Shown: positions 35,238-52,200 of the stretch, piece after piece
Layout of the letters: each line of letters starts with the position of its first letter
How positions within the stretch are numbered: the first letter of the stretch is position 1
Source: Rhodovibrionaceae bacterium
Lineage (GTDB): Bacteria > Pseudomonadota > Alphaproteobacteria > Kiloniellales > DSM-21159
Length of the DNA stretch: 64,000 nt
Assembly (NCBI GenBank): GCA_028279885.1
Contig: JANQMX010000060.1
Span: 62,001-126,000 of the forward strand
Reading direction: 5' to 3'
The notes under the pieces: generated by a model
Seen by the model: only the letters and a program-made list of their open reading frames with translations
Databases searched by the model: none
What the model was told of the DNA's origin: nothing
Position numbers and translations under genes: made by a program

Positions 35238-36914
35238 ATGGTACAGGACGCTGCACAGAAGACACTGCAGCAAAAGGCTGGTTTGGCGTGGGACGAACAG
35301 AGCTCTTCCTTTCGTATTCGGATACCGCAGAAAGCCAACATCGCGGCCGATACCGTGGGGCGGCATGCGCAGGGTGCCAAGCGCAATTCGACGGCGCTGA
35401 TCTTTGAGAATCTCGAGGGTCAGGTTTCTCAGTGGACTTTTGCCGAGGTCGACGAGCAGGCCAATCGTCTGGCGGCTGCGTTGAGGCGTCGCGGCTTGGG
35501 CCGCGGCACACGGATTGCCGTCCACACTGGCCTGAGACCGGAAACGGCGATTGCGCACATGGCGATCCACAAGTTGGGCGGCATCGTGGTGACGCTTTCC
35601 CAACTCTACGGCTCCGATGCTGTCGGCCATGTGTTGAACCACTCGGATGCGGCCGCGATCATCACCCAAGATAGCGCCTGGCAGCGCTTCCGTGAGCAGC
35701 ACTTTCCGGCGTTGGCGCATTGTATCGTCGTCGGGCAGGCCGCCGCCGGAGAGATACCCTTCGAAGCCCTGGTGGAGGAGCCGGCAGGGGATTTCGAGCC
35801 TGCCGAAACTCAGGCCGACGATCCTGCCCTACTGATGTACACCTCGGGATCGACCGGAATGCCGAAAGGCCTGCTGCACGGCCATCGCATCCTGCACGCC
35901 TACAGTCCGACCGTTTCGATGTTCTATAACCTGGAGCTCGATGAGCCGGACCTGGTCTGCTGGACCCCGGCGGACTGGGCTTGGGTCGGCGGACTGCTCG
36001 ACCTTCTGCTGCCGGCCTGGGAGCACGGCCAGACGGTCGTTACGAGCGAAAGTCGCTTCAATGCCGAGTGGGCCTTCGCGTTCATGGAACGCCACGGCGT
36101 CACACACAGCTTCATGACACCGACCGCGCTGAAGCGTTTGGCTGAAATCCGCAATCCGAAGGCCCGATGGGATATCACGCTGCGGACGGTTTGCACCGGC
36201 GGCGAGGCTCTTCCGGCCGAAACCTGGAAGTGGCTTCAGGGTGAGCTTGGCGTGTGCTGCAACGAGTTCTATGGCCTCACCGAGTTCAACCATCTGATCG
36301 GCTGTTGTCAGGCGCTCTATCCTTCGTTGCCGGGGTCCATGGGTAAGGCCTTTCCTGGCCACACCGTTGCGGTCGTCGACGAGGATGGGCGAGAGGTGCC
36401 TGACGGCGAGGTCGGACAGATCGTGGCCCGCGACGACGATCCGGCCCGGTTCTTGGGCTACTGGAAAAACCCCGAGCTGACCGAGGCGATGCAGCTTGGG
36501 CAATGGCTCAAGACGGGCGACCTCGCCAAGCGGGACGCCGCGGGTTACTTCTGGTACCAGGGGCGGGCGGATGATCTGATCAAGACCGCTGGCTATCGCG
36601 TCGGGCCGGGCGAAGTGGAGAATGCTCTGCTGAAGCACGACGATGTTGCCGAAGCGGCCGTCATTCCCAGCCCGGACGCGGGCCGCGGCAGCATTATCAA
36701 GGCGCTGGTACGCCTCAAGACGGGGGCGGCGGCGAGCGACGACCTGAAGCTCAGCCTGCAGGACATGGTCAAGCAGAACCTTGCTGCCTACAAGTATCCG
36801 CGGGAGATCGAGTTCGTCGAGAGCTTCCCTCTGACGAGCTCGGGGAAAATCAATCGGAAAGCCCTGGCGCTGGAAGAAAGGCAACGCAAGCTCGGCGGTG
36901 CCGAGCGTCCATGA
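35238..36914 (+). CDS. AMP-dependent acyl-CoA synthetase
   Basis: A 558-residue ANL-family ligase that activates a carboxylic acid as acyl-CoA via an acyl-AMP. The P-loop YTSGSTGMPKG is near residue 201; the A5 motif EFYGLTEFN, the A7/A8 hinge (WLKTGDLAKRDAAGYFWYQGRADDLIKTAGYRVGPGEVE) and the C-terminal lysine loop SSGKINRKAL are all intact. It resembles acetyl/propionyl/medium-chain ligases of the AcsA type. ATG 35238 has GAAGAGGAG upstream. Following TRAP uptake genes, it probably activates the imported acid; its stop touches the thiolase-like start. Confidence 0.9.
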   Translation: MVQDAAQKTLQQKAGLAWDEQSSSFRIRIPQKANIAADTVGRHAQGAKRNSTALIFENLEGQVSQWTFAEVDEQANRLAAALRRRGLGRGTRIAVHTGLRPETAIAHMAIHKLGGIVVTLSQLYGSDAVGHVLNHSDAAAIITQDSAWQRFREQHFPALAHCIVVGQAAAGEIPFEALVEEPAGDFEPAETQADDPALLMYTSGSTGMPKGLLHGHRILHAYSPTVSMFYNLELDEPDLVCWTPADWAWVGGLLDLLLPAWEHGQTVVTSESRFNAEWAFAFMERHGVTHSFMTPTALKRLAEIRNPKARWDITLRTVCTGGEALPAETWKWLQGELGVCCNEFYGLTEFNHLIGCCQALYPSLPGSMGKAFPGHTVAVVDEDGREVPDGEVGQIVARDDDPARFLGYWKNPELTEAMQLGQWLKTGDLAKRDAAGYFWYQGRADDLIKTAGYRVGPGEVENALLKHDDVAEAAVIPSPDAGRGSIIKALVRLKTGAAASDDLKLSLQDMVKQNLAAYKYPREIEFVESFPLTSSGKINRKALALEERQRKLGGAERP

Positions 36915-38096
36915 ATGACCACTGATGTCCTTGTTCAAGGCGGCAGCGTGCTGCCTTTCTGCCGCCGCAAGGACGGCAGCGGCCTTCGGGATTGGGCTCG
37001 TCAGGCCGCTCGGGAGGCGTTGAGTGACGCCCGACTGTCAATGGCGGACATCGACGCGGTGGTGGTCGGTTACGAAAGCGACCACCTGGCGCTGCAGCTC
37101 AGCCTCGGCGCTCTGCTCTGCGACGAGATAGGCGCGGTTCCCCGCGGGCTACAGCGCGTCGAATCCGGTGGTGCCAGCGGCGCGGCAGCGGTTCGTGCAG
37201 GATACCTGCAGATCAAGGCAGGCGCTGCACGCTCGGTTCTGGCGCTCGGCATCGAGCAGGCCGCAAGTCACCTCGCCTCCGAAGACGTCGGATTTCTCTA
37301 TGGCTTATCCTTCGATGCGGACTTCGAGGGCTATGCAGGTGCGACGGCACCGGTTCTTTATGCACTCTCCATCGCCGAGCACATGGCGCTGTTCGGAACC
37401 AGTGAAGAAGACATGGCGCTGGTTTCGGTAAAGAACTTCGCAAACGCCGCAGATAACCCTTGGGCCCATCGGCGACGGCCGGTGACCGTCGACGAGGTGC
37501 TGGGGTCGCCTTTCGTGAGCGCACCCTATAAGCGCCTGGACTGCAGCCCCTTGAGCGACGGTACGGCGGCCGTAGTCCTGGCGGCGGCGGACTGGGCACC
37601 TGACGTCGCGCGTCCCCGGGTGCGGCTGGCTGCCAGCGCTTGTGCCACCGATCACGTCCGCCTCGGTGACCGTGCGGCCATCCACCGCTTCGCGGCGAAG
37701 GCCATGGCGGCGGACGCCTGTTACCGTCAGGCCGGGATTGCCGATCCTTTCCAGGCTCTAGCCTGCGCGGAGCTCTACGACGCCTTTTCGGGCGCCGAAC
37801 TGCAAGCTGTCGAGGACCTCGGACTCGCGGCGCCCGGGAAGGCGGCGACGCGTCTGAAAGAGGGCTGCTTCGATGCGGACGGGGAACTGCCGATCAATGT
37901 GTCGGGTGGTCTCATTGGCCAGGGCGCTGCGCCCGGAGCAACTGGCGTCGCACAAGTGGTCACGGCAGAGAGAATCCTGACGGGCCGCTATTGGCGCGCT
38001 GTCGAAGCGGCCGCTTCTCGCCGGTTTGCCCTGACCGAGGCCCATGGTGGCATTGGAACGGTCTCGATCGTTCACGTGCTGGAGCGCACTGCATGA
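36915..38096 (+). CDS. Thiolase-fold protein (SCP-x/Ltp2-like) without thiolase catalytic residues
   Basis: A 393-residue member of the SCP-x-type thiolase family. The normal acylating Cys is replaced: RVESGGASG at 81-89 has Gly86 where thiolases have Cys. The His of the usual HDAF is Tyr288 (AELYDAF), and the His of GHPxGATG is Ala338 (GAAPGATG). The fold is otherwise intact (NVSGGL, GATGVAQVV). In Ltp2-type retroaldolases, known partners of DUF35 proteins, a Tyr replaces this His and the Cys is lost. The next gene is a DUF35 protein overlapping by ATGA, so an aldol-type C-C cleavage of an acyl-CoA is more likely than thiolysis. Confidence 0.75.
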   Translation: MTTDVLVQGGSVLPFCRRKDGSGLRDWARQAAREALSDARLSMADIDAVVVGYESDHLALQLSLGALLCDEIGAVPRGLQRVESGGASGAAAVRAGYLQIKAGAARSVLALGIEQAASHLASEDVGFLYGLSFDADFEGYAGATAPVLYALSIAEHMALFGTSEEDMALVSVKNFANAADNPWAHRRRPVTVDEVLGSPFVSAPYKRLDCSPLSDGTAAVVLAAADWAPDVARPRVRLAASACATDHVRLGDRAAIHRFAAKAMAADACYRQAGIADPFQALACAELYDAFSGAELQAVEDLGLAAPGKAATRLKEGCFDADGELPINVSGGLIGQGAAPGATGVAQVVTAERILTGRYWRAVEAAASRRFALTEAHGGIGTVSIVHVLERTA

Positions 38097-38545
38097 GCGA
38101 TGGTGGCAAGGATGGGGACGCCTTCCGCTTGCTGCTCGCGACGGAGTTCTCCTATGCCCACAGCTTTGGCGAACTGGCGCCCTTCTTTCGCGGTCTCGAG
38201 GAAGGGCGGTTGCTCGCCACGCGCTGCCGGGTGTGTGGAAAGGCGTTCTGCCCACCGCGTCTTCTCTGTCTCTGTGGCGCATCTGCGTACGAGTGGTTCG
38301 AGACCAACGGTGCCGGTGCGGTGCGCCAAGTCACGACAACTGCGGTTGGGACCAGGTCGCTGGGTGTCGATCAGGACGCTGTCTTCGGGTTCATCGCGAT
38401 AGACGGTTGCAGCAATCTTCTGTTCGCCCGCCTGGCAGCGACGGATGAACCGTACCGCGCCGGAACTCGGGTGCAGCTTCTGGCACCGAGCGGGCCTCTG
38501 ACTCATCCGATCCAGCAAGCGCTGTTTCAGGCGGAGCTTGGCTAG
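38093..38545 (+). CDS. DUF35 OB-fold/zinc-ribbon acyl-CoA-associated protein
   Basis: A 150-residue protein: zinc-ribbon with TRCRVCGKAFCPPRLLCLCGA (four cysteines in CxxC and CxC-type spacing) at about 40-62, then an OB fold (GAVRQVTTTAVG, FGFIAIDGCSNLLFARL, AGTRVQLLAP). The start ATG 38093 overlaps the thiolase-like stop (ATGA), so the two products are made together. DUF35 proteins form complexes with thiolase-fold partners and present acyl-CoA substrates. The next gene starts immediately after its stop. Confidence 0.85.
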   Translation: MSDGGKDGDAFRLLLATEFSYAHSFGELAPFFRGLEEGRLLATRCRVCGKAFCPPRLLCLCGASAYEWFETNGAGAVRQVTTTAVGTRSLGVDQDAVFGFIAIDGCSNLLFARLAATDEPYRAGTRVQLLAPSGPLTHPIQQALFQAELG

Positions 38546-39718
38546 ATGGGCAAGCTTAAAGAACTTGCTGCCGTTCTTTTGCTCAACCTCTTCCTCGGCA
38601 CTCTCTATGCCTGGAGCGTGATCGCGAGGGCGCTTGAAGGGGAGTTTGGGATAGGTCGCGTGGAAGCGAGCAGCGTCTTTTCCCTGGCGACGTTCTGCTT
38701 CGTCCTGGCGATGCTCTTCGCGCCCAAGGCCTACGGCCGGCTCAGCGCCCGCGGTCTTGCCTTCATCGCTTGCGGGATGGCGGCCGGTGGTTTGGCACTT
38801 GCCGCGACGGTTAAGGGCTTGCCCGCGCTCCTTTTTGGCTATGGCGTTTTGTTCGGTCTGGCCAACGGCGTCGGCTATGGCCTCTCGCTGCAGGTCGCCA
38901 CGCAGGTGACGCCTAAAAGGAGAGGCTTGGCCGTCGGATCAGTCGTGGCCGCCTATGCCGGCGGCGCAATTGTCGCGGCGGCGTTGCTAGCTTGGGCGGC
39001 AGCGGCCTGGGGGATCGACAGCACGCTTACGATGCTCGCTGTCTGCTTCCTGTTTCTCGCGGTGTTGTGTCCGCTGTTGCTCTGGGCCTCTGGTGCCACA
39101 TCGAGCGGACCGGAGACAAGGCAGCATGCTGCCGCACCGGAGTGGCTTGGCCGTACGTTTGTACTGCTCTGGATCGGCTACGCGTTGGGGGGCAGCGTTG
39201 GGCTCTTGATGATTGGTCACGCGGCCGCACTGGTCGAGTCGGTGAGAGGCAGCGAGGAACTCATCGTTCTCGGTGCGGCTTTCGTCGCCAGCGGGAACTG
39301 GATGGGACGCTTCTGTGCGGGGTGGGCGAGCGACTACATCCCAGTCCGTCAGGTTTTGTTGGTGGCACTGCTGCTTATCACCGGCGCCTTGTCGATGGTG
39401 CTCACTGTCGGTTCACCAGCCACAGTGATTGCGGCCTTGGCTGTTGTGGGCGCCGGTTACGGTGTTCTCGCGAGTGCCTATCCTATTGCGGTCGGCAGGT
39501 ACTTCGGCCCGAGTAAGGTCGGAGCGATCTACGGCAAGCTCTTCACTGCCTGGGGTGTGGCCGGCATTGCCGGTCCATGGATCGCGGGCTGGATGTTCGA
39601 AGCGACGGGGAGCTACCGCGAGGCCTTGTTGGTGGCCGCCGCCGCATCCGTTGTCGCTGTGCTGGTGACGGCGATGCTGCCGAGGACTGGTCAAGAGCAA
39701 GCGCCGGCGCGGCCATAG
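38546..39718 (+). CDS. MFS transporter, OxlT (oxalate/formate antiporter) family
   Basis: A 390-residue 12-helix transporter. The N-terminal NLFLGTLYAWSVI is the OxlT-family signature; the loop RLSARG and the second-half AGWASDYIPVRQ match MFS A-motif positions. It starts at the base after the DUF35 stop and ends the operon. It may move a carboxylate product or substrate of the upstream CoA-dependent steps. Confidence 0.85.
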   Translation: MGKLKELAAVLLLNLFLGTLYAWSVIARALEGEFGIGRVEASSVFSLATFCFVLAMLFAPKAYGRLSARGLAFIACGMAAGGLALAATVKGLPALLFGYGVLFGLANGVGYGLSLQVATQVTPKRRGLAVGSVVAAYAGGAIVAAALLAWAAAAWGIDSTLTMLAVCFLFLAVLCPLLLWASGATSSGPETRQHAAAPEWLGRTFVLLWIGYALGGSVGLLMIGHAAALVESVRGSEELIVLGAAFVASGNWMGRFCAGWASDYIPVRQVLLVALLLITGALSMVLTVGSPATVIAALAVVGAGYGVLASAYPIAVGRYFGPSKVGAIYGKLFTAWGVAGIAGPWIAGWMFEATGSYREALLVAAAASVVAVLVTAMLPRTGQEQAPARP

Positions 39719-39807
39719 CGCGCGGCACGACCCAGAGAACAACCTCTGCGTCGGCCTCAAAAGGCCCTTCGATGCTTGTCCGCGGTCGCTGGTCATGGCG
39801 AGTCAAC

Positions 39808-39836
39808 TTGACATCTAAAATCTGAAATTTTAGATT
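39808..39836 (+). promoter_or_regulatory. Promoter with palindromic operator before the KARI-like operon
   Basis: TTGACA at 39808-39813 (perfect -35), 17-base spacer, then TAGATT at 39831-39836 (4/6 of a -10). A perfect 9-bp inverted repeat, ATCTAAAAT-CTGAA-ATTTTAGAT (39813-39835), covers the spacer and -10. A dimeric repressor bound there would block RNA polymerase. The likely binder is the GntR/FCD protein coded at the end of the same operon. Confidence 0.7.
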
Positions 39837-39904
39837 TTATATCAGTACAAAACAGAACCTTCTCGGTATCGCTCTCAACGGCGAGGGAATGAGGAAGAAG
39901 CGGC

Positions 39905-40894
39905 ATGACGGATTGGTTTTTCGATGATGACGGTGATCTGAGCCTGTTGGACGGCAAAGTCGTGTGCGTATTCGGTTATGGTAACCAAGGCCGCTCACAG
40001 GCGCTCAACATGTTCGACAACAATGTCGAGGTCATCGTGGGCAGCCGCAGCGACTTGTCCGCTGAGCAGGCGAGGGCGGATGGATTGGCGGTCTATCCCA
40101 TTGCCGAGGCGGCGCAGCGAGCCGACGTGCTCTTCCTCCTGGTCCCTGACGAGGTGATGCCGGATATCTACGAGGAGGCGATCGAGGCAAACCTGAAGGA
40201 AGGCGACACGCTGGTTTTTGCCAGCGGCTACAACATTCATTTTGGCTACATCAAGCCGCCGGCCACGGTCGACGTCGTGATGATCGCGCCGCGCATGATC
40301 GGCAAAGGCGTCCGCGATACTTTTCTGAGCGGTACCGGCTACCCGAGCCTCATCGGGGTGCACCAAGATGCATCCGGTGAAGCGCTGGCGCGCACGATCG
40401 CACTGTCCAAGGCGGTCGGCTCGACAAGGATGGGTGTCATCATGTCGAGCTTCGAAGAAGAGACGGTCGTCGATCTCTTTGCGGAGCATTGGGGCTTTCT
40501 CTACGCCGTCCGACGCGCCTACGAGGTGTTGCGCGAAGCGGGATGCAGTCCGGAGGCCATCCTGCTTGAGCTCTATGCCTCGGGCGAAGGTGTCGAGACT
40601 GCGCGGGCCTATCGCGACATCGGGCTCTGGCACCAGATCACTCTTCACTCGCGGACCAGCCAGTACGGTCAGGAGGTCGTGGCGGCGCTCTCGCCTGAGC
40701 AGGAAGAGGCAGACAAACGCCACCTGCGCGGGCTTGTGGACAACATAAAGAACGGTGCCTTCGCCAAGCAGTGGCACGAGGAACAGCAAAACGGCGCCAA
40801 GACCATGAGCAGGGTTCGCGAGCGCAACCTGACTCACCCAATGATTCAAGAGGAGCGGAAACTGTACAAAACGCTGGGCAGGATCTCGGAGTAG
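39905..40894 (+). CDS. Ketol-acid reductoisomerase-like NAD(P)-dependent protein with altered active site
   Basis: A 329-residue class I KARI homologue with the N-terminal Rossmann domain (GYGNQGRSQA at 24-33) and the knotted C-terminal domain. Compared by eye with Pseudomonas KARI, catalytic residues are changed: the His of FAHG is Ser107 (FASGYNIHF), the Lys of APKxPG is Arg130 (APRMIG), and one magnesium Glu is Ser226 (ELYAS). Asp190, Glu194 and Glu222 remain. It is therefore unlikely to make branched-chain amino acids; no ilv gene is nearby. It leads an operon with an ABC transporter and GntR regulator, suggesting reduction of the imported compound's derivative. GAGGAAG precedes ATG 39905. 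Confidence 0.75.
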   Translation: MTDWFFDDDGDLSLLDGKVVCVFGYGNQGRSQALNMFDNNVEVIVGSRSDLSAEQARADGLAVYPIAEAAQRADVLFLLVPDEVMPDIYEEAIEANLKEGDTLVFASGYNIHFGYIKPPATVDVVMIAPRMIGKGVRDTFLSGTGYPSLIGVHQDASGEALARTIALSKAVGSTRMGVIMSSFEEETVVDLFAEHWGFLYAVRRAYEVLREAGCSPEAILLELYASGEGVETARAYRDIGLWHQITLHSRTSQYGQEVVAALSPEQEEADKRHLRGLVDNIKNGAFAKQWHEEQQNGAKTMSRVRERNLTHPMIQEERKLYKTLGRISE

Positions 40895-40979
40895 CAGCGC
40901 CGATCATCCAGTTGACGAGTCCGGCACAGCACAGGCGTTAGCAAAACAAAATACCAAAATCGTCAGTGGGAGGAACGCT

Positions 40980-42236
40980 ATGTTTGCGAAATCGATCAGG
41001 ACAACTGGCGCAAGCTTATGTCTCGCAGCCGCACTATCGCTTGCGGGGCCCAGTAGTGCATTCGCCGGTAAAGAAGTTGACAGCGACTGGCCGAACATGA
41101 CCTGGGAGGAAATCCTCGCCGAGGCAGAAGGTCAGACCGTGAACTGGTACATGTGGGGCGGCTCGGACATCATCAATTCCTACGTCGGAAACTGGGTCGC
41201 CGCGCAGGTCAAGGAACGCTACGGCATTACGCTCAAGCGCATCGGCATCGACAGCACGGTCGATGCCGTCAACAAGGTTCTCGGTGAAAAGGAAGCGGGT
41301 GTCTCTCGTGGCGGTAGCGTCGACCTGATTTGGATCAACGGCCGTAACTTCCAGACCATGAAACAGGGGGGCATGTTGTTCTGCGACTACATGCAGAAGA
41401 TGCCCAACGACCAGTACATCAACTGGGACGATCCGACGGTTGCTTTCGATTTCGGCATACCTGTCGATTTCTGTGAAGTGCCCTGGGGCCGGGCTCAGAT
41501 GGTGATGGTGTATGACCCCACCCGCCTAGAGAATCCGCCGAAGACGATCCCCGAGCTGATTCAATGGGTGAAGGACAACCCTGGCCGCTTCACCTATCCA
41601 GCGCCCCCCGACTTCACCGGCATGTTCTTCGTCAAGCATGTTCTCTATAGCACCGCAGGGACGTACGAACCCTTCATCGGGCCGTTCGATCAGACGGTCT
41701 ACGACGACGTGGCGCCGCAGCTCTGGTCAACGCTAAACGACATGGCGCCGGCACTCTGGCGCCGAGGAGAAACCTATCCGGCCGACCGCGCGGCGCTGCA
41801 TCAGCTGTTCGCCAATGGGGAGATTGATTTCACCGTCGCGACGCATCCTGATTCCGTGGGCAAGGACATCGACAAGGGTACCTTCCCGCCGACGACGTCA
41901 AGCTATGTGCTCGACGACGGCACGGTAGGCGACGTCCACTACGTGGCGATCCCCTACAATGCCGCGCACAAGGCGGCAGCAATGGTCGTCGCCAACTACC
42001 TGATCTCGCCCGAAGCTCAATTGGAAAAGGCAAAGCCCTCGGTTTGGGGCGTGCGCACGGCGCTCGATTTGACGCGCCTGCCGGATGAATGGCAGCAGCG
42101 ATTCATCGACCTGCCGCGCCATCCCGCGGTGGTCAGCGATGCCGACCTGGCGCGTGCCGCGCTTCCTCAGCCCAATAGCGAGTGGGTCAAGCCGTTCGAG
42201 GATGGCTGGCGCAAGAACGTAGCAGCCAAGAACTAG
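40980..42236 (+). CDS. ABC transporter substrate-binding protein (YnjB-like)
   Basis: A 418-residue periplasmic protein with Sec signal (about 1-29, ending AFA). The fold is that of extracellular binding proteins for polyamines, iron or thiamine, and NWYMWGGSDIINSYVGNWVAAQVKERYGI near residue 53 is the YnjB-family opening. GGGAGG precedes ATG 40980. It is the receptor for the two permeases and ATPase that follow, the same order as ynjBCD. The ligand is unknown; the E. coli system's ligand is also unclear. Confidence 0.85.
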   Translation: MFAKSIRTTGASLCLAAALSLAGPSSAFAGKEVDSDWPNMTWEEILAEAEGQTVNWYMWGGSDIINSYVGNWVAAQVKERYGITLKRIGIDSTVDAVNKVLGEKEAGVSRGGSVDLIWINGRNFQTMKQGGMLFCDYMQKMPNDQYINWDDPTVAFDFGIPVDFCEVPWGRAQMVMVYDPTRLENPPKTIPELIQWVKDNPGRFTYPAPPDFTGMFFVKHVLYSTAGTYEPFIGPFDQTVYDDVAPQLWSTLNDMAPALWRRGETYPADRAALHQLFANGEIDFTVATHPDSVGKDIDKGTFPPTTSSYVLDDGTVGDVHYVAIPYNAAHKAAAMVVANYLISPEAQLEKAKPSVWGVRTALDLTRLPDEWQQRFIDLPRHPAVVSDADLARAALPQPNSEWVKPFEDGWRKNVAAKN

Positions 42237-42249
42237 TCATCTTGCGGAC

Positions 42250-42278
42250 GCCCGGGCATGGATGGTCTGTGCCCGGGC
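42250..42278 (+). terminator. Strong hairpin after the ABC binding-protein gene
   Basis: A perfect 9-bp inverted repeat, GCCCGGGCA ... TGCCCGGGC, around an 11-base loop, 13 bases after the binding-protein stop. No T-run follows, so it likely protects the upstream mRNA end or attenuates read-through into the permeases. Confidence 0.6.
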
Positions 42279-42381
42279 TTCGCAAAGCTCCGCGGCCGCG
42301 GCCATTTGGAGACCTCGAGACCTAAGCTGCCGACAGTCTCCATAGGTAACGTATCGCCCTCCTGTCGGTTCGGAGTGCTGC

Positions 42382-43242
42382 ATGTCCAGCCGTTTCAAGA
42401 TATTGCTCTTGCTGACACCGGCCTTGTTCGTGATCTGCGTGCTGTTTCTCGGCGGTCTGGGTTTGGGCTTGGCGCGAAGCTTCAACTACATGCCGGTCAT
42501 CGGACTGACGGAGCCCAGTTTCCACGCCTATATCGCGGTCTTTACCAATCCTGAATTCTACCAGTCGCTCGGGCTCTCTCTTTACATCTCTATCACATCG
42601 ACGGTCATCTCCACTGTGCTCGCCGTTGCCTGCGCTTTGCTTCTGCGCGAGAGCTTTGCCGGGAAACGAACCGTCACTTTCCTGTTCCAGCTGAACCTGA
42701 CGATACCGCACGTCGTCGGTGCGGTAGCGATGCTGTTTCTGCTGTCTCAGAGCGGCTTCCTCGCCCGCATCGGCTATCTGTTCGGTATCATCGATCAGCC
42801 AAGCGAATTCCCCGAGATGATATACGATGACTATGCCATCGGTATCATCCTCCAGTACGTCTGGAAGGAAACGCCGTTCATTGGCCTGATCGCGCTCGCC
42901 ATCCTCCAATCCATGGGCGACGACTACGAGTCGGTGGCGCGCTCGTTGGGGGCCAACCGCTGGCAACGGTTGTTCTATGTCATCATCCCGCTGATCACGC
43001 CGGGCGTCATGCGCGCATGCATCGTTGCCTTCGCTTTCACCTTCGGGGCATTCGAGGTGCCCTATCTGATCGGCAAGACCTATCCGACGGTGCTGCCGGT
43101 GCTGGCCTATCAGAGCTACACCGATGTCGATCTGACCCTTCGGCCCGAAGCTATGGCGATGGCCCTGGTCATCGCCCTTATCAGCACGATCCTCATCGTT
43201 GCCTACCTGCGCGTTTCGCGTCGTTTCGTGAGGTTTGACTGA
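42382..43242 (+). CDS. ABC transporter permease 1
   Basis: A 286-residue inner-membrane permease with six helices and the binding-protein-dependent EAA loop near residue 175 (YESVARSLGANRWQRLFYVIIPLITPG). It pairs with the next permease and resembles polyamine/iron-type ABC permeases. GGAGTG precedes ATG 42382. The 145 bases before it hold the hairpin that follows the binding-protein gene. Confidence 0.9.
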   Translation: MSSRFKILLLLTPALFVICVLFLGGLGLGLARSFNYMPVIGLTEPSFHAYIAVFTNPEFYQSLGLSLYISITSTVISTVLAVACALLLRESFAGKRTVTFLFQLNLTIPHVVGAVAMLFLLSQSGFLARIGYLFGIIDQPSEFPEMIYDDYAIGIILQYVWKETPFIGLIALAILQSMGDDYESVARSLGANRWQRLFYVIIPLITPGVMRACIVAFAFTFGAFEVPYLIGKTYPTVLPVLAYQSYTDVDLTLRPEAMAMALVIALISTILIVAYLRVSRRFVRFD

Positions 43243-43243
43243 C

Positions 43244-44104
43244 ATGGTTCTGGCGGGTCTGCGTGAGGTGGCCGCTGAGGGCGGGAGCAGGGCGCTTTGG
43301 AGGCGAAGAAGCCTGTGGCGGTGGCTTGCGATCGGGCTCCTTCTGACCTGGCTCATCCTGCCGCTTGTCCCGCTTGTGATCTGGTCGTTCAGCTTCAGTT
43401 GGTTTTTCCCAAGCACGCTTCCCTCGCGCTGGGGGATGAGGGCGTGGGAGTATGCCTTCTCGCCGACGGCGAGCGTGCTTCCGGCGCTATGGGACACGAT
43501 CGTGATTGCCGGCGGGACGGTGTTCCTATCGCTGCTGATCGGGGTTCCTGCCGGGCGAGCCTTGGGGCTTCATGTTTTTCGCGGCAAGCGGATTGTCGAG
43601 TTCCTCGTCATTGCGCCGACGATCGTGCCGCCGCTCGCCGTGGTGCTCGGCATCCATGTGGTGTTCATCCGGCTTGGCTTAGCCGATACCGTGATCGGCG
43701 TCATTCTGGTTCATCTGATACCGGTCCTGCCCTACGTGACCCTTGTGATGACCGGGGTGTTCGCGAACTACGATCCGGAGTTCGAGGATCAGGCCCGATC
43801 GCTGGGGGCCGGTTGGGTGAGGACCATCTGGTACGTCATGCTGCCGGCCATCTTTCCGGGACTCATGGTCGCGGGGCTGTTCGCCTTTCTGATTTCCTGG
43901 AGCCAATACGTGATCACGCTCCTCATCGGCGGCGGCCAAGTGCAAACGCTTCCGCTGCTTCTCTACTCTTTCGCACGCAGCGGCGATAACGCCCTGACCG
44001 GCGCCCTGTCGGTGATCTTCATCTTGCCGGGGCTGCTTATGCTGTTGCTCACATCCCGTTTCCTCACCGGCAGGAACCAAGTCATTGGAGGCATTGGGCG
44101 CTGA
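43244..44104 (+). CDS. ABC transporter permease 2
   Basis: A 286-residue six-helix permease with EAA loop FEDQARSLGAGWVRTIWYVMLPAIFPG near residue 183. ATG 43244, one base after the permease 1 stop, with GAGG 10 bases upstream, is preferred to the TTG at 43235. The stop overlaps the ATPase ATG (TGATG), so transporter subunits are made together. Confidence 0.9.
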   Translation: MVLAGLREVAAEGGSRALWRRRSLWRWLAIGLLLTWLILPLVPLVIWSFSFSWFFPSTLPSRWGMRAWEYAFSPTASVLPALWDTIVIAGGTVFLSLLIGVPAGRALGLHVFRGKRIVEFLVIAPTIVPPLAVVLGIHVVFIRLGLADTVIGVILVHLIPVLPYVTLVMTGVFANYDPEFEDQARSLGAGWVRTIWYVMLPAIFPGLMVAGLFAFLISWSQYVITLLIGGGQVQTLPLLLYSFARSGDNALTGALSVIFILPGLLMLLLTSRFLTGRNQVIGGIGR

Positions 44105-45150
44105 TGACACATGTTTTGCTCAAGGGCCTCACACTTTGCTACGAGGGCCAGCACACGCCGGCGCTGGAGGCAGCCGATCTGGACATCGAAGACGGCAAGC
44201 TGACCGCGTTGCTTGGGCCTTCCGGCTGCGGCAAGACGACGACCATGAAGCTGATCGCCGGCCTGCTTAAGCCGACGGCAGGGGATATCTGGTTCGACGG
44301 CCGCTCGGTGCTCCCGATCTCGGCGGAGAAGCGCAAGACGGCGATGGTGTTCCAGAAGCACTTGCTGTTCCCATACATGACCGTCGGTGAGAACGTCGCC
44401 TTCGGTCTCAAGATGCGGGGCATCGACAGTCGCCTGCGCGCCCGGATGGCTACCGAGATGCTTGATATGGTAAAGTTGCCTGGCATGGAGGACCGCAAGC
44501 CGAACCAGCTTTCGGGTGGTCAGCAGCAAAGGGTAGCGCTGGCTCGCGCCTTGGTCATCCAGCCGGATGTTCTCCTGCTCGACGAGCCGCTGAGCGCGCT
44601 CGACGCACACCTGCGCGATGAGATGCGCGACTTGATCCTCTCCATCCAACGCAGATTGGGGATCACAACGGTCCTGGTGACCCACGATCAGGAGGAAGCC
44701 GTTGTTCTGGCTGATCGGATTGCCGTTATGTTCGACGGACGGATATGCCAGTACGACGAGCCTGCGGTCTTCTATGATCGGCCGAGTTCCATCCAGATCG
44801 CGCGGTTTTTCGGTGCGCGAAACCTGCTTTCGGCGCACATTTCGGATGGCGTCGCTGAAACCCGGATCGGCAGATTTGCGGTGCAGCGCGGTATCGTCCA
44901 AAGTGGTCGCGGCACGCTGACCATTCGACCGGAAGCGATGGTCATCGGCAATAGCGGCGCCAACGGGATTTCAGCCCGGGTGACAGCGCGAATCTATCTT
45001 GGAACGCAGGTAAGGGTGCGGTTTGAGGTTGACGGAGAGTCCTTGGAGGGCCTGTTCCCCCCAGATGTGATGCCCCAGGTCGAAGAGGGGAAATCGGTCG
45101 ACCTCATGCTTCCGCCGAAATCGATATGGGTGATGCCAGGTGAAGCTTGA
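44104..45150 (+). CDS. ABC transporter ATP-binding protein
   Basis: A 348-residue ATPase. Walker A GPSGCGKTT (38-46), Q-loop (MVFQKHLLFPYMTV), signature LSGGQQQRVALARAL (~137), Walker B VLLLDEPLSALD (~157) and H-loop VLVTHDQ are intact. The C-terminal ~100 residues form a TOBE-type OB domain (GTLTIRPEAMVI, LGTQVRVRFEV), as in PotA/UgpC-type importers. It overlaps permease 2 by 1 base and the GntR gene by 11 bases. Confidence 0.93.
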   Translation: MTHVLLKGLTLCYEGQHTPALEAADLDIEDGKLTALLGPSGCGKTTTMKLIAGLLKPTAGDIWFDGRSVLPISAEKRKTAMVFQKHLLFPYMTVGENVAFGLKMRGIDSRLRARMATEMLDMVKLPGMEDRKPNQLSGGQQQRVALARALVIQPDVLLLDEPLSALDAHLRDEMRDLILSIQRRLGITTVLVTHDQEEAVVLADRIAVMFDGRICQYDEPAVFYDRPSSIQIARFFGARNLLSAHISDGVAETRIGRFAVQRGIVQSGRGTLTIRPEAMVIGNSGANGISARVTARIYLGTQVRVRFEVDGESLEGLFPPDVMPQVEEGKSVDLMLPPKSIWVMPGEA

Positions 45151-45892
45151 GCGTTCAGAGCTTGAGGCCAGGCGCCGTGGTAAAGCACAGGATAGCGCCG
45201 GCAAGATTCATGTGCCGACCGTGCGCGACGAGGTCTACGAGCTGCTGCGCGAGCGGATCCTGACCTCGAGCCTTCCGGAAGGGACCCGAATTGATCTCAA
45301 GGAGCTTGCGGTAGACCTTGGTGTGAGCGCCACGCCGCTCAAGGAGGCGATCCAGCGGCTGCAAGCCGAAGGATTGCTGGTCGTGCAGCCTCGGCGAGGA
45401 ACATTCGTCGCGACGATCGACGAAGAGGAGGTCAAGGAAGGTTTTGAGGTCCGAAAGTTTCTGGAATTGGGCGCCGCGGAGATTGTCGTCGAGACGATAA
45501 CGGACAGCGACCTTAAAGAGCTGGACGCTATTCTGCAGGAAACCGAGCAACTCCTCACCAGAAAGAGCTACCAGGTTATCTTGCCTCGCTTCATTGCGCT
45601 CGATGGCCTGTTTCATGAGAAGATTATTGGGGCAACCCACCACCGTCTTCTCATCGAGCACTATTCGAACATCAACACGCTTCTGCACGTCTCGCGCATC
45701 CGGCGGCGCTTCGAGCGGGAGGACTCCCTCAAGACGGTGACCGAGCATAGGCATATCCTGGATGCGTTGAAGCGTCGCGACGAAGCGGCCCTCAAGGCTG
45801 CGATCCGTGAGCATATCGACGGTGGGCTGGCGCGGGTAAACAGCGCGCTGGGTCAACCCGATGACGTTCCGTCCGGGGGCAGAACCCGCTAG
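45140..45892 (+). CDS. GntR-family regulator with FCD domain
   Basis: A 250-residue regulator: GntR winged helix at about 15-80 (VRDEVYELLRERILTSSLPEG, LAVDLGVSATPLKEAIQRL, GLLVVQPRRGTFVA) and an all-helical FCD ligand domain. Metal-binding type residues are in LDGLFHEKI, TEHRHILDAL and AAIREHIDGG. GTG 45140 lies inside the end of the ATPase gene. It most likely controls its own operon through the palindrome at 39813-39835 and responds to the transported compound or its product. Confidence 0.88.
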   Translation: MKLERSELEARRRGKAQDSAGKIHVPTVRDEVYELLRERILTSSLPEGTRIDLKELAVDLGVSATPLKEAIQRLQAEGLLVVQPRRGTFVATIDEEEVKEGFEVRKFLELGAAEIVVETITDSDLKELDAILQETEQLLTRKSYQVILPRFIALDGLFHEKIIGATHHRLLIEHYSNINTLLHVSRIRRRFEREDSLKTVTEHRHILDALKRRDEAALKAAIREHIDGGLARVNSALGQPDDVPSGGRTR

Positions 45893-46239
45893 ATGCTTGC
45901 TCTCCAGCTGTTGGGCCTTTGCCAAGGCCCGGCAAAACGGCGGGACATCCATCCAAGCTGATCGTACATGCACCGCTGTTCATGCTGCGCCGAACTGGTG
46001 CCGCTTAGGCGCGAGCAAGGACGGAGCACGCTTTGCAGCGTAGACGCTGCAAGCTCCTGAGCGCGCGGATTGCGCACCTCCTTCTGACCGATAGCTGTAA
46101 CTGAAACCAGTCAGAAGTTTCCCAGAGTCTTAACAATGCGAAGCGGCCCGAGGGGGGTAGGTTCGCCCGGCTGTTGCCGAGAACGAGCAGCTTTCTCGGC
46201 CGATCTTCCTGAAACCATTCTCAATTGGGGAGCTTTGAG
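45893..46239 (+). other. Gene-free stretch before the giant secreted protein
   Basis: 347 bases with no credible gene. A perfect hairpin, GGGCCTT-TGCC-AAGGCCC (45913-45930), 20 bases after the GntR stop, may end the upstream operon although no T-run follows. The right half must hold the promoter of the giant gene; CTGAAACCAGTCAG near 46102 is a small inverted repeat. GGGGAG at 46227 is its ribosome site. Confidence 0.5.
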
Positions 46240-49200
46240 ATGGCGCGTAACCTCAACGGTGCGACTCTGGGTACGGCAGACGAGACGGGCATTCCGCGCA
46301 TCGACGGAAACGATACCTCCCTGTTTCGGTTTTCGGCTTTCGCGCCCGATGAGGCGCTGCGCCTGGTGCCGGGGACTGAAGCGCCCGAGCCGATCTCGAC
46401 CTGGGCCCTCGGCCTGGACGTCTACATCGAGCGGCCCAGCGAAACCTTTGTCAGCCTCTTTCAGACCGGTGAGGGCGACGGCGATCTCTTCCTGCGCGAC
46501 AACGGCGATGGCACCGCCGGGATCGGAGTGAGCGGTGTGTACGATGGTGCTGTGGCGTTCGATGCCTGGAACCGCATCGTCGTGACCGTGACTGAGGAAG
46601 GCGGCAACGCGGTCTTGCGCACCTACGTCAACGGCGGTCCTGTCGGGACCCAGGACCTCGGCGTAACCGACCGTTGGGATATCGATCCGACACTGGGCCT
46701 GAAACTGTTCAACGACGACAGCGGCGAGACGGCGGCCGGCGCCGTGTCCTCTGTGTTCTTTTCCACCGACGTGCCGAGCCCGGCGGAAGTCGCCGGGCTG
46801 TTGGCGACGGTTCCGACGGCTGACGCGGCAGGATTCTTCCCCGTGCAACCGACGCAGTCGGCTGTGGAGATCAATTTCGACAACCAGGACGTCCAGCCCC
46901 GCTATGGCACGGCGGACGTAGTCCTCGATGGCTTGGGCTTCCAGACACCAGCCGTGATCGGCGACAGCGCCATCGCCTTCTCGACCCAGTTCGGCATCGA
47001 CGGACCCGGCGGCGCGGACATCGCGGTTCTCGACTATGCGGGCTACACCCCGAGCGAAGGCGTTCTCGTCGAACTGCCGCTGCTCTCATCGGATCTCTCC
47101 ACCTACACCGCCGTCTGGGACATCCGCTTTGACGAGCTTGCCGGCTTCCAGTCGCTCCTCCAGACCGACGTGAGCCAGGGCGGCGATGGCGAGCTTTTCA
47201 TCCGCAGCGATGGCGGCATCGGCATCAACGGAGACTATGACGGGGCCGTCTCGGTCGACACCTGGCACCGCATCGCCATCACGGTAGAGGACCAGAACGA
47301 CGGTACGGCCATCCTGTCGAAGTACCTCGACGGTGCCTTCCTCGATAGCCAGACCGTGAGCGCCGACCGCTTCACTCTATCGGCCGAAACCGGCTTTCTG
47401 CTGCTGAGCGACAACGACCGCGAGACCTCGACGGGCTTTCTGGGGCACTTCGGGCTTTCGGAAGAGGTGCTCGACGCCTTGGAGATCGCCGCGCTTGGCG
47501 GGCCGGACGGCGACGGGCCGTTCGAGGCGGTTGACCCCGGCGGGACGCGCAGCCTGACGCTCAACTTCGACTCGAGCTTCCGGCCCTACGACAGCCAGAC
47601 TGGCTCGGTGCTGGTGTCCCTCGACGGCGGTGCGTTCACCTCGCTCTTGACCCTCGATACCTTGACGGTGCCGGGCGGCTCCAGCGCGCTGACCCGCGTC
47701 GACGAGGCCGTTTCGCTCAACTTCGAAGTGCCGGAAGCCACCGAGACGGTCAGCTTCCAGTTCGCTTACGAGAGCGCGGACAATGACTGGTGGTGGGCGG
47801 TCGACAATGTGTCGCTCACGGAGAACGGCTCAGCCCTGTTCTCGGAGGATTTCGAAGGTCTGCCCCTCGGGCCCTTCGTGTCGCCGGGCGAGAGCGGCGG
47901 CGATGGCACCGACTGGACCAATGTCGCGCCTGACGGTTGGAACCGCGACAACACGACCACCCCAACCGGCGGCGTCGTTGAGTTCGAGGGTTGGACGTTC
48001 CTCGACAAGAACAGCTGGGTCGCGACCGCTGGCGATCAGGCGCGCGCGCAGTTCACCCTCGGTGAGGGAATCGTGGCCGTGGCCGACGGCGACGAATACA
48101 GCGATCTCGGCGCCATCGGCAGCGACTCCATCAACGTCCTCTTGGCCACGCCGGAAATCGCCCTTCCCGCGAGCGGCGGCGACTCACCCGCGGTGGGGGA
48201 CGAGGGGGTGCCGACCTATCAGATCGGCTTCGACAACTATGAGCCGACGGTCGAGTTCGGCTTCGGCGAGGTCGCGGTGATCGATGAGGACGCCGAGGCA
48301 CCCTTCCAGGACAACATCAACGACCTGCTGATCACCGAGGGTGGGGCACCGACCGAGATTGACCTCGCGGCGGCCTTCGGCGCCGGCGCCACGAACTTCT
48401 CGGTCACCACCTCCGACGGCAGCCTTGTCGACGCGGAAATCGACGGCACGACGTTGAGGCTGAGCGGGCTGGACCTCGGCCACTCGGATATCACGGTCAC
48501 CGCCCAGGCGGAGAACGGTGCGGAGCTCGTCGAGAACTTCCGCGCCATCGTCGCCGGCGAAAACGCCTACGTCTTTGCGATCATTCCTGACACGCAGGAT
48601 TACACCTCCAACCCAGGGATAGCCGAGACCTTCGGCAATATGACCGACTGGCTGGTTGAGCAGAAGGACAGCCTGGCGATCCAGCATGCGATCCATGTCG
48701 GTGACATCGTGCAGTTCGGCGCGGAGGGCCAGTGGGAGATCGCCGAGGATGCCATGGAGCGGCTGGACGGCGAGCTCTCCTACACCCTCGCCATCGGCAA
48801 CCATGATCAGCAGCGCCCGGGATTCTCCTCGGCCTTCAGCTTCGAGACCGACGTCGACACCTACTTTACGCCGGAGCAGGTGGGCGCGACGGCAGCCCAA
48901 GGCGGCGGAACCTATGACGGCTTCGACGTGGGCGAGGATACCTTCCAGAACGGCAATACCTACGCGGACTCGATCCGAAACCACTACACCACGCTGACCA
49001 CGCCGGACGGCACCGATTGGCTGATCTTCAGTCTCGAGTTCGGCATGCCGGATGACGTCCTGCGCTGGGCCTCGGAGGTGATCGAAGATCACCTGGACCA
49101 CCGCGTTATCATCGACACGCATTCCTGGAATGGCGGTGACGGCCGCGTCACGCCCACGACCGAGCCGCTCAACACTGACAACGGCGGCTGGGGTTATGCG

Positions 49201-52200
49201 ATCCGCGACAACCCGCGGGGCGTGAACGACGGCGAGGATGCCTGGCGGGAGTTCGCCTCGAAGTATCCGAACATCACCTTCACCTTCAACGGTCACAACT
49301 TCATGGGCGGCGCCGAGACCGTGGTGAGCTATGGCGCCGGCGGCAATCCGGTCCACCAGGTCTTCGTGAACTACCAGAACGGCGCTTGGGCCGGTGTCGA
49401 GGGTGTCGGCACCAACGGTGGCAACGGCGCGATGCGCTTGATGGTGATCGATCCGGACAACGACCGGGTGACGACCCACACCAAGCTTGTCGAGCTCGAC
49501 AGCTACTACGACGAATTCCCGGACCACCAGGAAGTCTTCGAAGGAGTCGACCTCGGTACGCCCGAGCAGATCGCCATTGCAAAGGCCGGCGAGACCATGA
49601 CGGTCACCGGCGACGGCATCTCGGCAACGGTCGAGCTCGACCCCTCCGCGACCATCGGCGATACGGCCGGTGCCACTTTCGAGTGGTTTGCAGCCGATGG
49701 CGAGAAGCTGGGCGAGACCGATGGCGGCGTGCTGTCGGTCGACCTCAAGACCGGAACAAACCGCCTGTTGTTGGAGGTCACCGACCAGAACGGCAATGTG
49801 TCGACCGACGAAAAGGTGGTGATCGTCGAGGCACCGGACGCGCTCTTGACCGAGACCTTCGACGACGGCGATTTGGCGGGATGGGGCTCGCCCGCGGGCG
49901 ACCCCGGCGATCTCTTCGACCTCGGCACCGATCTCGGCTTCTCGCTGCCGTCGATCGGCGGCGTGGCGCAGATCCCGATCACGCTGCAGTTCGACTCGAG
50001 CTTCCGGCCCTATGACGCCATGACCGGCGAGGTGATGGTCAGCTTTGACGGCGGCCAAAGCTTTTCGACGCTCTTGACGCTCGACACGAACACGGTCCCA
50101 GGCGGCACCAGCTCTCTCGACCGCGCGAACGAGGAGGTCACCCTCGAGGTCTTGGCCCCGAGCAGCGCCAGCGACATCCAGTTCGCCTGGCGTCTCAGCC
50201 AGGCCGACAATGATTGGTGGTGGGCGATCGACAACGTGGAGGTCACCACGGGCCTGCCGGACGTCGGACAGACGCTTCTCGTCGAGAACTTCGACGGCCT
50301 GCCGCTACAGGATGTCGTCGACGAGCCCGCACCGGATCCCAACCGCCCGGTCTGGACTCCGACACCGCCGGCCGACTGGACCCAAGATGTCGCGCCCACG
50401 ACCTCGCAGGGAACCACCGAGTGGCAAGGTTGGACCTTTGCCGACAAGGATTTCTGGATCTCGGTCGCGGGCAACCAGGCCCGCGACACCTTCGCGCTGG
50501 GCGAGAACACGGTCGCCATCGCCGACCCCGACGAGTGGGACGACAACAACGACGGCGCGGCTGGCGACACAGACGAGTTCGACAGCACCCTCAAGACTCC
50601 CGCAATCGACATCACCGGCATCGGCGGCGGTCAGCCGGCCGGGAGCGAGGCTGGCATCGTCAGGGTGGCGCCGCTCTCCGGTGTCGAGGGCCTGTTGGTG
50701 ACGCCGACGAGCTCCACCGGCGAGATCGACACATACACCTTGATCTTCGACATCCTTCTCACGGAAACGACCCAGAGCTTTACCTCGCTCTTCCAGACCG
50801 ACGTGACCAACGGGGGCGATGCCGAGATCTACCTGCGCAACGACGGCGCCACGGCCAGCATCGGCATCTCGGGCGACTATGACGGCGCACTGACCTACGG
50901 CGAATGGGGCCGGCTCGCGCTGGTCTTCGAGACCGACGAGAACGGCCAGCAGTCTCTCTCCAAGTACCTCGATGGCGTCTTCCTCGACAGCCAGATCGTG
51001 GACAGCGACGTCTCCGACGGCTCGCGCTGGACGATCGACGCAGATCAGGGCTTCCTGCTGTTCTCAGAGCCGAACGGTTTCACCTCGGAGATCTTCACGA
51101 ACGCGCTGCACTTCACGCCGGAGGCGCTGGATGCAGCGACCATCGCCGCGCTTGGCGGTGTCGATGTCGACGGGCCGGTGGATGCTGCCGCCAACCCGGA
51201 GGCTTTCCAGTTCAACTTCGATGGCGCGCTCGACAGCCTCGACTACGGCACTGCAGGTTTAGCGCCGGTCAGCCTGGCCGGACCGGACGCGACCTCCTAC
51301 CTGGTCAAGGGCTCCATCTTCGGCAATCCCAACGGCGAAGGCGAGGCGGCGCTCTATCAGCAGTCCAACGGCGCGAACGAGATCCTCGTGTGGCTCGGCG
51401 AAGGCGCAGAGAGCTGGAGCGACTACGTCTTCGACATGGTGGTGGAGCCCGCCGACAACGACACGATCGGTGCGGTGTTCTACTACCAGGATGACGAGAA
51501 CCACTATCGTCTGACCCTGGACCAGGAAAACGATACCCGGACGCTCTCGAAGTTCGAGGACGGTGTCGAAACGGTTCTCGCCACGGAGGCGGGGTCCTAT
51601 CGTCACTTCGCGGCGCAGGACCTGCGCATCGCGGTGCTGGGCAGCGAAATCGTCGTCACGCTGGACGACGAGCTCTTGTTCGATGGACCGGTGAGCGACG
51701 CAAGCCCGCTTGCCGGCGGCACCGTCGGGGTGCTGTCGCAACTGATGGACCGCGTGATCTTCGACAACATCTCGGTCAATCCGATCGACCTGGCGGCGCG
51801 CGCGCTGACGTCCGAGCCCTCCGGCCGCTGGGTCGCGGACCTTGACGGCGATGGGACCGCCACGGTGAACCTGACCGCGGCGGCCAGTCTCTCGGCCGCC
51901 GGCGTGGCGTCTTATGAGTGGCTGGTCGACGACGAAGTCAAGGCGACCGGCGAGGCGGCAGCGCTCACCCTGGCGCCGGGCGAGACCACGGTCACGCTGC
52001 GGGTCACCGATGCCAATGGCGCGACATCCGAGGACCAGATCACCGTCGCGGTCGCCGACAACCGCGCCATCCTGGCGTCGGACGACTTCGAGGACGGCAA
52101 TTTTGCCGGTTGGACCATCGTGGACGAAGGTACACAGGAAGGTCCCTCTGACTGGCAGGTCGTGGGGGGCGAGCTGGTGCAGGCCTCCGACATCCAGTCT

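Follow-up and report, generated by a model that had tools for sequence, protein, structure and literature searches.

The locus and its candidate regulatory site

The gene at 39905-40894 of the window (the whole stretch of 64,000 nucleotides that was analysed) encodes a paralogue of the class I ketol-acid reductoisomerases (KARI; IlvC). We refer to the paralogous clade to which it belongs as KARI2, a label of our own. The gene and the features around it are as follows.

39808..39836, + strand: promoter-like TTGACA-17-TAGATT, agreeing with the sigma-70-type consensus at 10/12 positions
39813..39842, strand not applicable: operator-like palindrome ATCTAAAATCTGAAATTTTAGAT (core ATCTGAAATTTTAGAT), which shares bases with the spacer and the -10 of the promoter
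39905..40894, + strand: KARI2, class I KARI paralogue of 329 aa, with Ser107, Arg130-Met131-Ile132, D190/E194/E222/E228, an insertion at ~225-226 and His248/Ser249/Ser252/Gln253
40980..42236, + strand: solute-binding protein of an ABC importer, YnjB-type (PRK11622, 489 bits, cut-off 203)
42382..43242, + strand: ABC importer permease 1 (BPD_transp_1), 57-61% identical to KARI2-linked permeases
43235..44104, + strand: ABC importer permease 2 (BPD_transp_1), 61-63% identical to KARI2-linked permeases
44104..45150, + strand: ABC importer ATPase with a TOBE domain, 52-55% identical to KARI2-linked ATPases
45140..45892, + strand: GntR/FCD transcriptional regulator, 36-43% identical to regulators beside KARI2 in other alphaproteobacteria

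A preliminary description of this DNA had placed the gene first in an operon with a YnjBCD-like importer and a GntR regulator, and this arrangement held: a binding protein, two permeases, an ATPase and an FCD-GntR regulator follow it. KARI2 probably heads the operon, because the sole promoter-like site of the region lies directly upstream of it and overlaps the palindrome. That site is the only sigma-70-type match in 39600-46200 and is to be read as a consensus match only, as shuffled sequences average 1.6 such sites. No acetolactate synthase or dihydroxy-acid dehydratase genes were seen near KARI2 in the annotated 35-46 kb of the window, consistent with the earlier statement that no branched-chain amino acid gene is near. 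Sugar-acid enzyme genes were likewise not found in the window's own KARI2 operon.

The palindrome is perfect, with arms of 9 bp; the GntR/FCD protein (45140-45892) is likely a local repressor, and the palindrome at 39813-39842 is presumably its site. Exact copies of ATCTGAAAT(A/T)T(C/T)AGAT lie 33-85 bp before KARI2 in the window and in loci L037, L045, L050, L051 and L052. The sequence is on the other strand beside KARI2 in L008 and has a two-mismatch form in L048, and it was not found near KARI2 in those checked loci that lack an FCD-GntR regulator. In L037, L045 and L052 the palindrome recurs (0-1 mismatches) ahead of TRAP genes. The shared palindrome supports joint control of importer and enzyme and is a candidate operator. 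It occurs once in the 5.6 Mb genome that contains the window, and thus a search for a GntR regulon revealed no co-regulated pathway genes.

Genes on either side of the operon were also inspected. Upstream of KARI2, 35238-38545 encodes an acyl-CoA ligase, an SCP-x-type thiolase and a small protein that is possibly of the DUF35 type. L044 has homologues of the thiolase and of the possible DUF35-type protein near KARI2, and L046 and L055 have thiolases there; the genes at 35238-38545 may thus share a pathway with KARI2. Downstream, 46225-53022 contains an ORF of 2265 aa in which inspection by eye suggests regions that are phosphoesterase-like or rich in repeats; its product is probably secreted.

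Family assignment and active site of KARI2

The window protein is a class I KARI by its domains and fold. Pfam domains KARI_N (4.9e-59) and KARI_C (3e-21) span the length of the ORF, and the Rossmann motif GYGNQGR is present. An AlphaFold (AF2) model built from the family alignment has a mean pLDDT of 96.2, and its 50 best Foldseek matches are all KARI-fold proteins (TM ~0.9), with the Sulfolobus/Saccharolobus solfataricus enzyme Sso-KARI at the top. The protein passes the curated ilvC model TIGR00465 (237.4 bits against a cut-off of 226.15) but falls below the cut-offs of PRK05479.1 (270 vs 336), PRK13403.1 and PRK05225.1, and it is 35% identical to canonical class I IlvC.

The preliminary description had proposed to look for a normal ilvC elsewhere in the genome and for a separate clade sharing the same substitutions and neighbors, and both were found. 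A canonical ilvC with the His, the Lys and the four acids lies on another contig of the same genome (G000:C8:11430-12383; L001). In a tree of 70 sequences, 53 KARI2 and 17 canonical proteins fell on opposite sides of one branch (SH-aLRT 100), and the substitutions and similar neighbors recur in the relatives. KARI2 is found in Alphaproteobacteria, Actinobacteria, Clostridia, Chloroflexi, haloarchaea, Sulfolobales and other taxa. A genome scan recovered at least 453 relatives, in the broad sense, in bacteria and archaea, of which 80 were retained; the scan targeted KARI2 motifs, and rare intermediates might have escaped it. Some Chloroflexi members (L077, L079, L086 and L099) have a C-terminal extension, in which an SCP2 domain was identified in L079 and L086.

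Most hosts of KARI2 also have an ordinary enzyme. A second KARI match was present in 25 of the 29 host genomes searched, and the 20 second copies that were retrieved all read as canonical IlvC; one further host, G064, has a second KARI of class-II-like length. S. solfataricus (6jcv matched at 100%) carries KARI2 twice, along with an ilvC copy in the canonical range that is 38% identical to P0001. Three archaea (G358, G348 and G327, the last two possibly incomplete) have KARI2 and gave no canonical IlvC or IlvD match. The genome of G358 is ~1.5 Mb, with KARI2 on its largest contig (1.496 Mb), and at least one archaeon has KARI2 without a detected canonical IlvC or IlvD. Judged from the sequences, KARI2 is a discrete, widespread and ancient sister family of IlvC that was previously blurred with it. 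We found no papers in the open literature (subscription journals were outside the search) that name the family as distinct from IlvC.

Active-site residues were counted in a MAFFT alignment of 157 sequences, 107 from the KARI2 clade and 50 canonical IlvC. Met131 and a two-residue insertion were used to define the KARI2 group and are thus not independent counts; the other positions played no part in that definition. The canonical catalytic lysine (motif APKGPG) is present in 50/50 IlvC and is replaced by Arg130 (motif APRMIG) in 106/107 KARI2 proteins. The canonical histidine (motif FAHGFN) is Ser107 in the window protein (motif FASGYN). Both replacements had been claimed before and are borne out by the alignment, yet Ser107 is not diagnostic of the clade, as position 107 varies within it (Ser in 85 and His in 22 of 107). 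Several further changes had gone unmentioned. Pro132, found in 50/50 canonical proteins, is lost in the KARI2 clade (Ile132 in the window protein, next to Met131), and the pocket residues His248, Ser252, Gln253 and Gln244 are polar, where IlvC has mostly Ile/Val, Ala, Glu/Lys and Met. The window protein carries the marks of the clade that it shares with Sso-KARI: the R-M of APRM, Ser226 in the insertion, His248, Ser252 and Gln253. Ser249, Thr251, the NAD(P) motif and the active-site acids are conserved across bacterial and archaeal members. Because it is conserved across phyla, the pattern of residues is not due to chance, and the fact that the changed residues are themselves conserved is not what decay would give.

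The metal site appears to be intact. The four acidic Mg2+ ligands (a pair in D-x3-E and a pair in the knot helix) all seem to be retained as D190, E194, E222 and E228: D190, E194 and E228 are found in 107/107 members, and position 222 is Glu or Asp in 106/107. The preliminary description was right that the NAD(P) site and the other acidic ligands remain, but its claim that Ser226 replaces a magnesium-binding glutamate is probably an alignment artefact. In the KARI2 clade the stretch from one metal-helix glutamate to the other is longer by two residues (~225-226), Ser226 sits in this insertion, and Glu228 pairs with the second canonical helix Glu both in the MAFFT alignment and in a profile-profile alignment made with hhalign. 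The metal helix is broken at 226-227 in the AlphaFold model of KARI2 (H216-225 / H228-238) and is continuous (221-250) in that of the same genome's own IlvC. We rejected loss of a Mg ligand on the gapped family alignment, the profile-profile alignment and the helix break.

Neighbors of KARI2 in other genomes

Neighboring ORFs were taken from a simple ORF caller, and loci of high GC content may hold wrong calls; we therefore limit the argument to genes confirmed by family searches or tblastn. Importers and regulators recur beside KARI2. The window's YnjB-type ABC importer adjoins KARI2 in three Acidimicrobiia (binding protein 47-49% identical, permeases 57-62%, and the ATPase, where present, 54-55%). 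Other importers beside KARI2 are TRAP/DctP systems in L008, L037, L045 and L052, TAXI-TRAP in L050 and L051, GntP in six loci, and MFS transporters in L090 and L102. In alphaproteobacterial loci, an FCD-GntR regulator homologous to that of the window is adjacent or divergent.

Genes for sugar-acid enzymes accompany KARI2 in only a handful of the loci examined. In L081, KARI2 lies between PfkB and FAA-hydrolase (FAAH) genes; the locus also encodes MR/MLE, RpiA, an aldehyde dehydrogenase and a D-xylonate dehydratase of the YjhG/YagF type (1194 bits, cut-off 808). L090 and L123 have D-threonate-kinase-like genes, which score below the equivalog cut-off, and PdxA-family genes, which clear the general pdxA model but not the one for D-threonate 4-phosphate dehydrogenase. 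A nickel-pincer isomerase and a KdgT-like transporter are also encoded in L090, and a TRAP binding protein in L123. On haloarchaeal plasmids, KARI2 is near two or three MR/MLE genes, SDRs and cupins, and in one case RraA. The Acidimicrobiia loci add a Zn-ADH, an aldolase, Dak1 and a nucleoside-hydrolase-like gene. Some loci have 2-hydroxyacid racemases or glycerate kinase (the latter in L037 and L121), and elsewhere the neighbors are hydantoinase A/B (marine Rhodospirillaceae), sulfatase and thiolase, or glycyl-radical-enzyme loci. Because neighbors differ strongly between clades, a single sugar-acid substrate common to all KARI2 proteins is not demonstrated; the thiC genes of S. solfataricus (below) and the SCP2 fusions of Chloroflexi count against it as well.

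A role in thiamine metabolism was also considered. YnjBCD is labeled 'putative thiamine transport' in some databases, and in S. solfataricus each KARI2 gene (L194, L195) is directly beside a thiC-type gene, a pattern that duplication of a thiC-KARI2 pair would give. We did not adopt this role, as thiC is absent from all other KARI2 loci examined. A literature search on the function of YnjBCD gave nothing useful.

Two loci deserve mention in their own right. In Faecalicatena orotica (L101, 3616-8939), a Wadjet-type defence cluster (JetA, SMC-like) lies just upstream of GntR-KARI2-GntP. On a plasmid of Rhizobium lusitanum (L042), a KARI-like gene in two pieces over two annotated frames lies beside AMP-binding and type I PKS genes, and may be a further KARI drawn into a biosynthetic cluster.

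Possible functions and comparison with known systems

We tentatively favor the view that KARI2 is a Mg2+-dependent, NAD(P)-linked (isomero)reductase of the KARI type, encoded in a catabolic operon under GntR control, whose substrate is a hydroxylated, sugar-acid-like carboxylate taken up from outside, and we give this view not quite an even chance. KARI2 would keep the fold, the NAD(P) site and the four acidic ligands of KARI around a changed, more polar substrate pocket. As in KARI, a 2-oxo or 2-hydroxy-3-oxo acid would be interconverted with a 2,3-dihydroxy acid, and the substrate, in place of acetolactate, would be a small hydroxylated (sugar-acid-like) carboxylate of a catabolic pathway. 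In the window, the adjacent ABC transporter might import this compound or its precursor, and the GntR/FCD protein might bind the palindrome upstream of KARI2 and keep the operon off as long as the compound is absent. We infer the direction of the reaction, the catabolic role, the class of substrate and the binding of the repressor; a hydroxylated carboxylate is favored because of the polar pocket and the sugar-acid neighbors taken together.

The earlier suggestion that a KARI fold has been reused for a different reduction or isomerisation stands in part. The separate clade, the genome's own IlvC, the recurring neighbors and at least one archaeal genome in which neither canonical IlvC nor IlvD was detected speak for reuse, but a crippled metal site is not supported, and the literature treats Sso-KARI, in which Ser and Arg are likewise found, as a KARI. 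We therefore think it likelier that KARI2 is an enzyme of the KARI type with another substrate than that its fold has lost the catalytic machinery. It is highly improbable that KARI2 is a degenerate protein without catalytic function, retained to bind a ligand or to regulate: although it departs from the canonical enzyme at two catalytic residues, its acids, NAD(P) motif, Ser249 and Thr251 are kept in bacteria and archaea alike, as are the changes themselves. A narrower form of the sugar-acid idea seems to us quite doubtful: that KARI2 alone carries out both the oxidation of a 2,3-dihydroxy (aldonic or branched sugar) acid and the movement of a substituent between its C2 and C3, as an oxidoisomerase that puts KARI chemistry to catabolic use in a pathway unrecognised so far and common to bacteria and archaea.

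Two other readings keep KARI2 as an active enzyme. The near-universal replacement of Lys by Arg, together with the pocket changes, could abolish alkyl migration, leaving a reductase of 2-oxo acids (or of the tartronate semialdehyde/hydroxypyruvate type) or a 2-hydroxy acid dehydrogenase for an imported acid. E. coli KARI mutants at the corresponding Lys reportedly lose isomerisation more than reduction (Tyagi 2005). The glycerate kinase and racemase neighbors would also suit such an enzyme, and known KARIs are promiscuous reductases that act on ketopantoate and other 2-oxo acids (PMC4353338). However, a simple reductase would not need the strict retention of all four metal ligands, including those of the two-metal isomerase step, and Sso-KARI has the same Arg and is described as a KARI. 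We consider loss of isomerisation unlikely, if a serious contender. KARI2 could instead be an ordinary KARI after all, a second, auxiliary isozyme for acetolactate that differs in cofactor use or in regulation and is placed in another operon. It passes TIGR00465, and its clade-mate Sso-KARI, which binds Mg2+ and NADPH, is treated in PMC8615647 as a cofactor-bispecific KARI (its reference 13, a 2019 JACS paper, has the effect of pH and cofactor bispecificity in its title). Since Sso-KARI carries both Ser and Arg, these substitutions alone are compatible with KARI activity. Against an isozyme are the failure of the remaining KARI models, the co-occurrence of canonical IlvC in most host genomes, the three archaea with KARI2 and neither IlvD nor canonical IlvC detected, the importer and catabolic neighbors in place of ilvBN, ilvD or leu genes, and the polar residues where the pocket would be hydrophobic. 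We thus regard an auxiliary acetolactate enzyme as rather improbable.

Proteins of the KARI2 family are annotated as enzymes of valine and isoleucine biosynthesis: RefSeq records carry ilvC and the matching GO terms, and the window protein passes TIGR00465. Such mislabeling distorts pathway predictions, for example of branched-chain amino acid prototrophy in archaea without detected IlvD or canonical IlvC, and the much-studied Sso-KARI structure stands for KARI2 and not for IlvC. Identifying the substrate of KARI2 would show how a reductoisomerase site with two metals adjusts to polar substrates, and a catabolic pathway could come to light.

Of the systems already described, Sso-KARI (PDB 6jcv/6jcz/6jd2, 'putative ketol-acid reductoisomerase 2') is like the window protein in being of the same tree clade, at ~45% identity, and in sharing Ser107, Arg130-Met131, the insertion with Ser226/Glu228 and the His248/Ser249/Thr251/Ser252/Gln253 pocket. 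According to the PDB titles, its structures include Mg2+, NADPH and one other ligand. Unlike KARI2 of the window, it is encoded beside thiC (twice) and outside any ABC operon. Class I IlvC (P. aeruginosa type, and the genome's own copy) shares with KARI2 the fold, the NAD(P) motif, the four acidic ligands and the Ser and Thr of the substrate loop, but has Lys130, Pro132, His107, an uninterrupted metal helix and a non-polar pocket, and belongs to the other clade. BurG, a KARI-like enzyme of malleicyprol biosynthesis (PMC12790350; PDB 7pcc-7pct), has the same fold and is a precedent for recruitment of a KARI to different chemistry. In contrast to KARI2, BurG acts in a biosynthetic assembly line, and it is 33-34% identical in the fold search and a weaker hit than canonical KARIs in the sequence search. 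We rejected a BurG-like natural-product enzyme because of this distance and because the neighbors are an ABC importer and GntR, with no sulfonium-acid PKS/NRPS cluster.

Tetronate and aldonate catabolism (DtnK, PdxA2, YjhG) uses gene families that lie beside KARI2 in L081, L090 and L123, and its 2,3-dihydroxy acids are analogues of the product of KARI that carry additional hydroxyl groups. We know of no such pathway that uses a KARI homologue. The reaction of D-apionate oxidoisomerase (ApnO; neighbors apnL/oiaX) resembles that of KARI in reverse.
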